NCBI GenBank assembly: GCA_030447955.1
Contig: JAUJNY010000002.1
Span: forward strand, 15,970-79,969
Direction: 5' to 3'
Length of the DNA stretch: 64,000 nt
Origin: Jiangellales bacterium
Lineage (GTDB): Bacteria > Actinomycetota > Actinomycetes > Jiangellales > Jiangellaceae
Shown: in pieces, positions 14,597-63,013 of the stretch
How positions within the stretch are numbered: position 1 is the first letter of the stretch
Layout of the letters: each line of letters opens with the position of its first letter
Made by a program: the position numbers and the translations under genes
Notes under the pieces: generated by a model
The model's database searches: none
The model's input: the letters and a program-made list of their open reading frames with translations, nothing else
What the model was told of the DNA's origin: nothing

Positions 14597-18511
<3,915 letters not shown>

Positions 18512-58317: not shown

Positions 58318-59289
58318 TCATGCCTGCCCGGCGTACCAGGACGCCAGCCGGACGAAACCCTCATCGAGGCTCACGGCTGGCGTCCAGTCCAGCACCGCGC
58401 GGGTGCGGCGCTGGTCGAACCAGTGCGTGGTCGCGAGCTGCTCGGCGAGGAAGCGGGTCATCGGTGGGTCCCCCGCGGGAGCCCGTACGGCCCACAGGGC
58501 CTCCGCCGCCGCCCCACCGGCCCAGGCGACCGGGAACGGCACTCGCCGGCGCGGCGGCCGCACCCCGGCCGCCCGGCACACCCGCGCCACGATTTCGGTT
58601 ATGGGGCGCGGCTCACCGTTGCTGATGACCAGGGCCTGCCCGTGGGCGTGCTCGCAGCGATCTACCGCCGCGACGATCGCGGCGGCTGCGTTCGCCACGT
58701 AGGTCGTGTCGATGAGTGCCGCTCCGCTGCCGACGAGCGCCAGCCGGCCGGAGCGGGCCCGTGACACGATCCGCCCGACGAGTTGAGTGTCGCCGGGCCC
58801 CCACACCAGGTGCGGCCGTACGGCCACGACGGCGAGCGACGGCCCGTCGGCGGCGAGGGCCAGCCACTCCGCCAGCGCCTTGCTGCGCGCGTAGTGACCG
58901 CGGGCCGTACGCGGCTCCGCCGGTCCGGCAGGTGCCCCGACAAGAGAAGTGCCGGAGTGCGCGACCGCGGGGGAGGAGACGTGCACCAGCCAGCCGACTC
59001 CGGTCGCGCGGCAGCCGTCGACGACGTGGCGGGTGCCGGCGACGTTGACGCGCTCGTACTCCCGCCACGGACCGGTGACGGCGACCTTGGCGGCGAGGTG
59101 CACGACGGCGTCCTGACCGCGTACGGCCTGCCGTACCGCGTCTACGGAGGTGACGTCAGCGAGCACCTCCCGGCAGGGCAGCCCGGACGGCCGGCGCTGC
59201 AGCACCGTCACGTCGTCGCCGCGCTCGTACAGCACCTGGGCGACCGCACCACCGAGCATCCCGCTCGCGCCGGTGACGAGCACCCTCAC
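58318..59289 (-). CDS. oleD: OleD, 2-alkyl-3-ketoalkanoate reductase
   Basis: The protein has 323 residues of the extended short-chain dehydrogenase type. The NADP motif is 'VTGASGMLGGAVAQ', the catalytic Tyr-Lys are in 'HYARSKALAE', and 'RPHLVWGPGDT' is conserved in OleD/3-beta-HSD relatives. It reduces the beta-ketoacid made by OleA to a beta-hydroxyacid in long-chain olefin synthesis. GTG 59289 overlaps the oleBC stop by 4 bp. Placement directly after oleA-oleBC fixes the identity. Confidence 0.92.
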   Translation of the reverse strand: MRVLVTGASGMLGGAVAQVLYERGDDVTVLQRRPSGLPCREVLADVTSVDAVRQAVRGQDAVVHLAAKVAVTGPWREYERVNVAGTRHVVDGCRATGVGWLVHVSSPAVAHSGTSLVGAPAGPAEPRTARGHYARSKALAEWLALAADGPSLAVVAVRPHLVWGPGDTQLVGRIVSRARSGRLALVGSGAALIDTTYVANAAAAIVAAVDRCEHAHGQALVISNGEPRPITEIVARVCRAAGVRPPRRRVPFPVAWAGGAAAEALWAVRAPAGDPPMTRFLAEQLATTHWFDQRRTRAVLDWTPAVSLDEGFVRLASWYAGQA

Positions 59290-61994
59290 TTGCGACGCGG
59301 TCGCTTGCCGGCCAGGACCGCCTCGGCCCAGGCCGCGACCTCCGCGCGGTCGACCTTGGCGTTGTGCCGGATGTCCACCGGTAGCCGAGGTGCGAGCAGC
59401 ACCGCCGCCACCGGGACACCGGCCACGGCGCTTACGGCGTCCGTCAGCTCGAGGTCGGCCACTCCCATGATCGAGTGGACACTTCGGGACCGAAACACCG
59501 GCGCGCCGCGACCAGAACTGCCCACTCGATCATGAGGGGGGCGGCCGGGCGAGGCCTCCGGCACCACGACCGCGACCACCACCTGGGTCGCGGGTGGCCC
59601 CACCCCCACGACGGACGCCGCACGGACGCCGGGAAGGTCCTGGATGCGCAACTCCGGCCCCACGGGGGTCACCGGGCCGGCTGCGGTCGTAATGACGTGG
59701 ACCAACCGGCCCTCCACCCACAGCCGGCGCTCGTCATCGACGTGCCCCACATCACCGGTGCGGTGCCACCCGGGATCCCGGGAGCTTGCTCGCTCGGTGA
59801 CCCACAGCCGGTCGTAGCGGTCCTTGACGTGGTCGGCCCGTACGCACACCTCGCCGCTCACCCCGACCGCATCACTCAGCGGGCCGTCGGCGCGGCCGTC
59901 GGCGGACAGGGGGCTCACGGTCAGCTCGACGCCCGGCACCGGGCGCCCCACGCAGACGCCCTCGCCCGGGCCGACCTTGTCGATCTCCTCGAGCGAGATG
60001 TCGGTCACCGGCAACGCCTCGGTCATGCCGTACGGCGTGTGCACCCGTGCCGCGGGCAGCAGCCGGCTCACCTCGCGGAGCAGGGTGACCGGTACGGGTG
60101 CGCCCGCGGACAGCACCAGCCGCGGCCGCTCCAGCGCACGCCGCTGCCGCGCATCCAGCGCGCCGCCGGTGGCGACAACGTTGCGCAGCGCGGCGGGGGA
60201 GGCGAACACCAGCGTCGCGTCCAGCGCGGCGACGGCCTCGGCGAGGGCGGCGGCACGCAGCGAGCCCGGGGCGGTGACGTCCATGCTGGGCACGGCGGTC
60301 GGGATGCCGAGCGCCGGCCCGTACAGCGCGAACGGGGCGAACGCCGCCACAAAGCGGTCCTCCGGGGTGATGTCGTACGTCGCGCGCAGCGCGCCCAGCT
60401 GGGCCAGCACCTGGCGCTGTCGGTAGACAACGCCCTTGGCCGGCCCGGTGGCGCCAGAGGTGAAGACGACTGCGCTCTCCGCGTCAGGGTCGGGCTCGGG
60501 CAGCGCGGCGGTCGTCTCGCGGCCGATCCGGGCCAGGTCGGCCAGGCCGTACGTCGCCCCGAGCGCGCGCCGGCTGGCCTGGTCGAGCGGCCCTGAAGCG
60601 ATGCGCCGCCCGGGCAGCCGCATCACCTGGGCCGCGGCCAGCCCGCGCGGCACGCCGATGACGTAATCGGGCGCGGCGGCGCGCAGCGCCCGGCCCATGG
60701 CCCGCAGGCCGAGCCCGGCGTCGGCGAGGACGACGACTGCCCCGGCGCGCCAGCACGCGTACACGGCGGCGGTCAGGTCGGCGCCCGGAGGCACGAGCAG
60801 GGCCACCCGCTCACCGGGGCGCACCCCGGTCGCGACCAGGCCGGCGGCCAGTTCGCGCACCCGCCGCTCCAGCAGTGCGAAGGAGACCGTCCTGCGCACA
60901 CCGCTCGCGCCCAGCTCGACGACCGCCGGCGCCGGGTCGCCGCCGCGCGCCTCGAGGGCCGACCACAGCGATCGATCCGCGGGCCGCGGCTGCGTGCGTG
61001 CCCGTCTCCGACCGGGCCGCCCAGCCGGCAGCGATGCGGTCGGGGAGACGGCGGGCCGGTCGAGGGAGGTCACCCAGTCGGCGATGGCGGTCGCAGCTTC
61101 CGGCCGGTCCTCGGGCAGCAGGTGCCCGGCGCCCTCATAGCGGTGCACCTGCGCGTGCGGCAGCCGGGCGAACAGGTCAGCCAGGTCGCGCTCGGCGAAG
61201 ACGGGGTCGCTCGGTCCCCAGAGCACCAGCACCGGTACGCCGGCCAGTGCCGGCAGGTCGCCCACGATGGCGCGCAGCCGGGCGGCGCTCGGGTGCGTGG
61301 GGTCGAGTGGGATGTCGGCGACGAAGTCGCGGACGGCCGTGCGGCGGGCGGCGCCCCGGTACGGCGCGGCGAACGCCGCGCGGACCGGCGCCGGAAGCGG
61401 CGGGCGGGACACCGCGGACGCCGCCCGTACGAATGTAGGCGTGCGCTCACAGACGGTGCGCAGCAACGTGGGCGAGCGGGCGAGGCGGATCAGCGTTGGC
61501 CCGCGATAGCCGGCCGGCAGGTGCACCGCGGTGTTGGCCAGCACGACGCCGGCGAGCGCGTCGCGGTGGTCCAGCGCCCAGCCGAGCGAGATCGGCCCGC
61601 CCCAGTCGTGGCCCACCGTCACGACGGGCCCGGTGAGGCCGAGCGTGTCGGCGAGGCGGCCGAGGTCGTCGACGCGTTGGGCGAGCCGCCGTGGCCGCGG
61701 CTCTGCCGGCCGCTCGGACCAGCCCATCCCGAGCTGGTCGGGAGCCACGACACGCCATCCGGGTGGGGCCGCCGCGAGCAGGTGCCGCCAGAGGTAGGAC
61801 CACGTCGGGTTGCCGTGGACGCACAGCAGCGTGCCTGCCGGCTCGGCTGAGGTCTTCCGGGTGCCTCGCGCGGCCGTGGTGTCCAGGACGTGCCAGCTGC
61901 GGCGTACGCCCTCTCTGTCAACCACGTCGACGAGGCGGGACCACCGGGGGTCGAGGCCGGGCAGCCCGGCCGGGGGGAGAGAGGCCGGGATCAC
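59286..61994 (-). CDS. oleBC: OleBC fusion: beta-lactone decarboxylase and beta-lactone synthetase
   Basis: This is a 902-residue fusion. Residues ~1-310 are OleB, an alpha/beta hydrolase with 'HGNPTW' (60-65), nucleophile D130 in 'GHDWGG' and His in 'GAGHLLPED'. Residues ~350-902 are OleC, an AMP-binding enzyme with P-loop 'VFTSGATGPAKGVVYRQ', 'YGMTEALPVTDI', 'TGDVGHVD' and a C-terminal domain with 'PVDIRHNAKVDR'. OleC makes a beta-lactone from the OleD product and OleB decarboxylates it to a cis-olefin. GTG 61994 overlaps oleA. A 69-bp palindromic element (59466-59534) adds 23 residues in frame to a loop of the C-terminal domain. Confidence 0.93.
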   Translation of the reverse strand: MIPASLPPAGLPGLDPRWSRLVDVVDREGVRRSWHVLDTTAARGTRKTSAEPAGTLLCVHGNPTWSYLWRHLLAAAPPGWRVVAPDQLGMGWSERPAEPRPRRLAQRVDDLGRLADTLGLTGPVVTVGHDWGGPISLGWALDHRDALAGVVLANTAVHLPAGYRGPTLIRLARSPTLLRTVCERTPTFVRAASAVSRPPLPAPVRAAFAAPYRGAARRTAVRDFVADIPLDPTHPSAARLRAIVGDLPALAGVPVLVLWGPSDPVFAERDLADLFARLPHAQVHRYEGAGHLLPEDRPEAATAIADWVTSLDRPAVSPTASLPAGRPGRRRARTQPRPADRSLWSALEARGGDPAPAVVELGASGVRRTVSFALLERRVRELAAGLVATGVRPGERVALLVPPGADLTAAVYACWRAGAVVVLADAGLGLRAMGRALRAAAPDYVIGVPRGLAAAQVMRLPGRRIASGPLDQASRRALGATYGLADLARIGRETTAALPEPDPDAESAVVFTSGATGPAKGVVYRQRQVLAQLGALRATYDITPEDRFVAAFAPFALYGPALGIPTAVPSMDVTAPGSLRAAALAEAVAALDATLVFASPAALRNVVATGGALDARQRRALERPRLVLSAGAPVPVTLLREVSRLLPAARVHTPYGMTEALPVTDISLEEIDKVGPGEGVCVGRPVPGVELTVSPLSADGRADGPLSDAVGVSGEVCVRADHVKDRYDRLWVTERASSRDPGWHRTGDVGHVDDERRLWVEGRLVHVITTAAGPVTPVGPELRIQDLPGVRAASVVGVGPPATQVVVAVVVPEASPGRPPHDRVGSSGRGAPVFRSRSVHSIMGVADLELTDAVSAVAGVPVAAVLLAPRLPVDIRHNAKVDRAEVAAWAEAVLAGKRPRRK
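59466..59534. repeat. Palindromic element inserted in frame in oleC
   Basis: Perfect 13-bp inverted repeats CATGATCGAGTGG (59466-59478) and CCACTCGATCATG (59522-59534) bound a 69-bp unit. Its length is 23 codons, it has no stop in the gene's frame, and it encodes HDRVGSSGRGAPVFR followed by SRSVHSIM. Flanking sequence continues normally as OleC on both sides, so it looks like a small mobile or repeated palindromic element that landed in a tolerant loop. No second copy was seen in this window. Confidence 0.75.
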
Positions 61995-63013
61995 CACACG
62001 ATTTCGATGCACGAGGTGTTGAGCCCCGAGCCGATCCCCATGCACAGCACCCGGTCGCCCCGGTCCAGGGAGTCGACCTCACCGGCGAGGGTGAACGGCA
62101 GCGACGCCGGCCCGATGTTGCCGCGGGTCGGGAACGTGCGGGGCACCCGATCTGGGTCGATGCCGAGCGCCGCGCACAGCGCCTTGGTGTGCACCTGCGA
62201 GATCTGGTGGATCACGTAACGGTCCATGTCGGACCAGTCGAACTCGGCCTTGGCGTCCTCCCAGGTGGCTACCGAGAGGGCGAGCCCGGCCGCGAGTAGG
62301 CCCTTGGTGTCGGTGCGCATGAGCTGCAGATCGCCGACGCACAGCTCATGGTGCTCGGTCCCCGCGCGAGAGACACCGCCGACGATCCGGTGGCCCTCTG
62401 GATGGCGGTCGGCGCGGCCCAGCACCATGCCGGCCGCGCCGGAGCCAAGGGTGAGCGTGGCGAACTGGGCGGCGACGTCCGCGGCGGTGGCGCTCGGGCT
62501 GGCGAGCCGGTCGAGCGTTGCCAGCTGGGTCTGGCGGGCTCCCTCGCCGTCCACGACGAGCGCGTAGTCGAGCTGTCCGGCATCGATCATGGTGGCCGCC
62601 AGCTGCATGCCGTTGACGAACCCGAGGCAGGCGTTGGCCAGGTCGAAGTTGAGGCAGGACGTGGGCAGGCTCAGCGCGTGGTGAACGGCCACCGCCGCCG
62701 AGGGCTCGAGGTGGGTCCGGGCGACCGAGGAGTCGATGAGCAGCCCGACCTGGGAGGGGTCGGTGCCCGCCTCGGCCAGCGCCTTGGCGCCTGCCATGGC
62801 CGCAGCGTCGACGAAGCTGACGTCCTCCGGCCACCACCGGCGCTCACGGATGCCGGCGAGCTTCTCCAGCATGCCGGCGCGCAGGCCGAGGCGCCGGTAG
62901 GTCTCGCCCAGCCGCTCGTCGAACTCCGCGGAGGTCACCACCTGCGGTGCGTCGATGGCGCACACCGACAGCACCGCCGTGTTGGAGTGGCGGTAGGTCG
63001 CGTTCCCGGACAT
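61991..63013 (-). CDS. oleA: OleA, thiolase-fold fatty acyl condensing enzyme
   Basis: The protein has 340 residues. The catalytic triad of the KAS III-like fold is visible: C129 in 'LANACLGF', the His in 'VIHQISQVH' and the Asn in 'RGNIGPAS'. OleA joins two long-chain acyl-CoAs by non-decarboxylative Claisen condensation to give a beta-ketoacid, the first step of head-to-head hydrocarbon synthesis. The ATG at 63013 has GAGGAGG upstream. It is the first gene of the oleA-oleBC-oleD operon. Confidence 0.94.
   Translation of the reverse strand: MSGNATYRHSNTAVLSVCAIDAPQVVTSAEFDERLGETYRRLGLRAGMLEKLAGIRERRWWPEDVSFVDAAAMAGAKALAEAGTDPSQVGLLIDSSVARTHLEPSAAVAVHHALSLPTSCLNFDLANACLGFVNGMQLAATMIDAGQLDYALVVDGEGARQTQLATLDRLASPSATAADVAAQFATLTLGSGAAGMVLGRADRHPEGHRIVGGVSRAGTEHHELCVGDLQLMRTDTKGLLAAGLALSVATWEDAKAEFDWSDMDRYVIHQISQVHTKALCAALGIDPDRVPRTFPTRGNIGPASLPFTLAGEVDSLDRGDRVLCMGIGSGLNTSCIEIVW

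Follow-up and report, generated by a model that had tools for sequence, protein, structure and literature searches.

A 69-bp palindromic repeat family, probably mobile, concentrated at gene 3′ ends of a Jiangellales genome and present once in frame within oleBC

A near-palindrome of 69 bp lies in frame within the oleBC gene of the window, by which we mean the whole 64,000-nucleotide stretch of Jiangellales DNA that was analysed, and it belongs to a repeat family dispersed through the genome. The family consists mainly of gene-end palindromes, to which the window copy is an exception. On balance, we read the repeats as mobile palindromes of a new REP/MITE-like family, one member of which has been tolerated as an in-frame insertion. 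It is probable that these are non-autonomous repeats whose 69-bp unit has become dispersed over the genome and mostly lies at the 3′ ends of genes, since their unit length is fixed, the copies are homologous, their ends are conserved and the insertion into a gene is clean.

The element starts with CATGATCGAGTGG and finishes with CCACTCGATCATG (Table 1). An earlier note, made from this DNA alone, had described it as a 69-bp unit bounded by perfect 13-bp inverted repeats and comprising 23 stop-free codons in the frame of the gene; both arms and the length are as described, and the translation, HDRVGSSGRGAPVFRSRSVHSIM, contains no stops. The inner palindrome GGCGCGCC pointed out in the same note does exist, at 59500–59507, but it belongs to the variable interior and is no hallmark of the family. 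Compared with the family consensus, the window copy deviates at 10 positions, one of these in an arm, and it carries a T to C change at unit position 56 (window 59521), within the right conserved part. As RNA, the unit folds very stably (z = −6.8), and the arm, searched in the genome at no more than one mismatch, gave 15+15 matches versus 3+1 for a reversed control. Together with the 21 copies recovered by a hidden Markov model (HMM), these results place the palindrome beyond chance.

Table 1 Features of the palindromic unit and of the gene cluster that carries it (window coordinates).
Feature	Position	Strand	Remarks
69-bp repeat unit, near-palindromic	59466..59534	no strand	genome copy C6:75435-75503; OleBC residues 838-860
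Left arm, 13 bp, CATGATCGAGTGG	59466..59478	+	conserved CGAGTGGAC at 59472-59480
Right arm, 13 bp	59522..59534	-	conserved GTCCACTCG at 59520-59528
Host gene, OleB (alpha/beta hydrolase)-OleC (AMP-binding, olefin beta-lactone synthetase type) fusion, 919 aa	59286..62045	-	
oleD-like 2-alkyl-3-oxoalkanoate reductase, next cluster gene	58318..59289	-	best model NF042422
oleA-like 3-oxoacyl-ACP synthase III, upstream cluster gene	61991..63013	-	

The gene order oleA-oleBC-oleD is that of an oleABCD cluster with a fused oleBC; the oleD-like gene scores 321 bits against its best model, below the curated cut-off of 580. The oleBC frame is open across and past the element, whose residues lie shortly upstream of the intact C-terminal LPVDIRHNAKVDR motif, and the insertion point falls within the C-terminal subdomain of OleC, in a loop whose length varies. 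The 23 residues, which the earlier note held to be without counterpart in related AMP-binding proteins, are absent from all 11 OleBC orthologues of other families (47–63% identity), and once they are removed the loop has the same length as that of one of these orthologues (L308). Because no OleBC orthologue was found in 21 genomes of the same family, the empty site was assessed on proteins of other families, and the comparison stands at the protein level. Judged from these protein sequences, the element was inserted cleanly and in frame in OleBC, and OleC presumably stays functional despite the added residues. That the segment is instead a native extension of OleC, or a chance inverted repeat, is hardly credible: loop length at the insertion point does vary among AMP-binding proteins, but the same unit recurs 20 more times elsewhere in the genome and its residues are missing from every orthologue compared, and on these grounds the idea was rejected. 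The equal length of those 20 further copies and the clean absence of the residues from orthologues also bear out the earlier proposal that the element was inserted as a unit, and contradict both outcomes that had been named as speaking against it, namely the same residues in most relatives and an absence of other arm copies.

The entire assembly, a draft of 2.27 Mb in 10 contigs with 71% GC and 82% completeness, was searched. An iterative HMM search detected the window copy and 20 others, all 21 at E <= 3e-10, whereas the best remaining match had E >= 1.3. All 21 are 69 bp long, and the spacing between the 9-bp arms is always 39 bases (18 of 18, with a pattern permitting 35–50 bases). Mean pairwise identity among the copies is 77%; 4 of 378 cells (1.1%) are off consensus in the conserved arm CGAGTGGAC and 165 of 819 (20%) in the interior. 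No longer relative, half element or lone arm with an extended match was found in this incomplete genome. A short duplicated stretch at C1:133397-133570 adjoins a run of N and is probably an assembly gap artefact.

Genes were called with a home-made codon model, curated by hand and partly checked against Pfam, with single gene starts uncertain. By these calls, one of the 21 copies lies inside a gene (oleBC), one encodes the C-terminal tail of a LarB-like protein, 5 occupy convergent gaps, 12 sit at co-directional 3′ ends and 2 lie between divergent genes. Eighteen of the 20 copies other than that in oleBC are no more than 45 bp from a gene 3′ end, versus 22.7% of random intergenic points (binomial P about 3e-10), in a genome with a coding share of 89%. 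The arm provides the stop codon TGA in nine copies; RsmB and MenE, both ended by an arm, have complete Pfam domains and have therefore kept their native protein ends. The two copies between divergent genes, at C9:753937-754005 and C9:576081-576149, are exceptions to the 3′-end placement. The copy at C9:154939-155007 (14939-15007 of locus L119) makes up the last 22 codons of the LarB-like protein, whose frame encodes an AIR-carboxylase-type domain and is followed by the gene for nickel-insertion LarC; the tail reads ...AAAAAKIDWTRRTGHAGESRTEGSTRS and then stops at the TGA of the far arm, directly ahead of larC. The earlier description of a coding-tolerant element holds for the in-frame copy in oleBC but not for the family at large, in which one copy is internal, one is a tail and the others are at 3′ ends or in divergent gaps. 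We regard frame tolerance as a by-product, since 69 is divisible by 3 and only one of the three frames per strand runs into the TGA of the arm.

Beyond this genome, the pattern CGAGTGGACN{34,54}GTCCACTCG matches at least 106 stretches in GTDB genomes, with carriers that include Microlunatus speluncae (39 copies), Flexivirga, Tersicoccus, Rathayibacter, Compostimonas, Cellulomonas and a Kineosporiaceae MAG. The exact pattern is present in only 4 of 395 genomes of the class, and was not found in 21 genomes of the same family. Among the matches listed, lengths of 56–58 are the commonest class (64 of 106), and the bases adjacent to the arm pair at 0.73 for these lengths versus 0.40 for other lengths. 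Related 56–59-bp palindromes ending CGAGTGGAC occur in many actinobacterial genera with lineage-specific interiors, their common arm being partly built in by the search pattern. Unaffected by this arm bias are the peak in lengths, the pairing of interior bases and the matches of the family model in Rathayibacter VKM Ac-2857 (56) and Cellulomonas pakistanensis (52, strands counted separately in both). In other families the model gives weak matches with different arms and a similar apical CGACACGCCGG-type hairpin. On this sequence evidence, a wider actinobacterial palindrome superfamily beyond the 69-bp family is likely, though not proven.

Several further observations concern these relatives. 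CGAGYGTGC-ended palindromes of other actinobacterial families are mostly 56–59 bp long in four genomes (G024, G068, G072 and G084), and a fifth (G032) contains 30 such copies, mostly of 65–69 bp and with a 19-bp arm, CGAGTGTGCAATTTCCGAC. Arms like GATGATCAyGG or CTGATCATG and an apex of the GACACGCCGG type occur in hairpins of four other actinobacterial genomes (L353, L358, L361 and L369), which may represent a sister family distinguished by its arms. At Microlunatus speluncae loci L164, L170, L175, L206, L215 and L247, near-identical interiors are accompanied by a conserved asymmetric flank, TTTCGAnTGCACTC, which suggests that in this subset the palindrome is contained in a larger repeat. Inside-gene calls in other genomes were discarded as mostly spurious long frames. 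No copies were detected in plasmids or phages by blastn, and seven viral contigs fitting a loose pattern were set aside as chance matches, because their interiors are weakly palindromic and their lengths differ. No close relative had a copy at a homologous place, and hence no polymorphic insertion was found.

We propose that the terminal inverted sequence (G)ATCGAGTGGAC would be the recognition end of the element, and that the 69-bp unit would be copied by transposition, with a putative enzyme acting in trans. Transcribed copies would form a long hairpin right behind or overlapping stop codons, and this hairpin may influence mRNA 3′ ends. A single copy would have entered the length-variable loop of OleC; being 3 x 23 bp and in a frame that lacks the TGA of the arm, it leaves the gene open and lengthens the enzyme by 23 residues. 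A Y1/RAYT transposase (PF01797) was found neither in the 82%-complete genome itself nor in 17 other carriers, with positive controls, and the incomplete own genome yielded no autonomous partner transposon sharing the ends. A check for target-site duplication, likewise suggested in the earlier note, returned no convincing direct repeats around the copies in this genome and four others, where the palindromic ends would mask short repeats. Convincing copy-specific palindromic flanks were absent from the genomes examined, with 6 copies in Compostimonas showing an inverted signal in their flanks that is weak (z 2.4). We put forward only tentatively, as something possible, that mobile palindromes widespread in actinobacteria might make up a superfamily (core of about 56–59 bp, ends CGAGYG, interiors particular to each lineage) that is moved or copied by an enzyme unrelated to RAYTs, targets stop codons and occasionally contributes peptides to functional enzymes, as in OleC and LarB.

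Alternatively, the repeats could be transcription terminators or mRNA 3′-end stabilisers, that is, hairpins without a U-tract that have spread or been retained for their ability to end transcripts, their mobility being incidental. Such a role would fit the stability of the RNA fold, the copies at 3′ ends and in convergent gaps of this genome, and the placements in other genomes (26 convergent, 19 co-directional and 9 divergent), but several copies occupy co-directional gaps in which the next start is 12–40 bp off (hutH-hutU, menE and its downstream neighbour, rsmB-rpe, larB-larC), and a terminator there would cut the operon. In addition, the flanks are G/C-rich and devoid of a U-tract, the arm is conserved in sequence beyond pairing alone, and one copy lies within oleBC. 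Stem changes in the own genome are uncompensated (457 paired cells versus 463 expected, covariation term about 0), so that a function of the hairpin is at most putative. We consider this explanation rather doubtful, and a uniform terminator role for all copies is unlikely because of the uncompensated stems, the lack of a U-tract and the tight co-directional gaps. Rfam returned no family match up to E = 10, and identity with a catalogued RNA family was rejected.

An operator, or a site bound by nucleoid proteins, having arisen or been retained at many loci, would account for palindromic ends that are conserved around a variable interior. Yet the copies are located at gene ends and not at promoters, the entire 69-bp unit is homologous between copies, interior included, and comparison with orthologues shows a clean insertion in OleBC, all of which makes a binding site quite improbable.

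REPs are 20–40 bp long, bear a GTAG or CGTC tag and are associated in many species with a RAYT (Y1) transposase; they lie mostly between convergent or unidirectional genes near 3′ ends, where their ends often give stop codons, and some copies are intragenic (PMC3733652). The 69-bp family likewise consists of dispersed palindromes that are concentrated at 3′ ends, supply stops and are occasionally intragenic, so that its placement agrees with that of REPs in nearly every respect. It differs from them in a unit of 69 bp with a core of 57, in ends that read CATGATCGAG and in that the search for a Y1 transposase gave no match. The ends of the 21-copy consensus are CATGATCGAGTGGAC, with no GTAG/CGTC foot tag. 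Rickettsia palindromic elements are reported in a summary to be about 150 bp long, with nearly half lying within ORFs (PMC10969869). With these the oleBC copy shares an in-frame, stop-free palindromic segment at a permissive site that is absent from orthologues, whereas the present family has one internal copy in 21 and one C-terminal tail; its nearer likeness is therefore to REPs, of which a few copies are intragenic, and not to Rickettsia palindromic elements. As in bacterial MITEs (PMC10969869), the repeats are non-autonomous, and many copies of one length share conserved terminal inverted repeats around interiors that vary. In contrast to MITEs, no parent transposon was found for them in the incomplete genome; no convincing target-site duplication was seen.

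Our search of the open-access literature, with subscription papers outside its scope, found no description of this 69-bp actinobacterial family. REP families have been systematically described mostly outside Actinobacteria, which the main REP survey never mentions. A form that is common across actinobacterial genera, with differing interiors and neither a known REP tag nor a RAYT, prompts one to ask by what means it moves, and the copies in OleBC and LarB offer a new lineage in which to test how far enzymes tolerate inserted palindromes.
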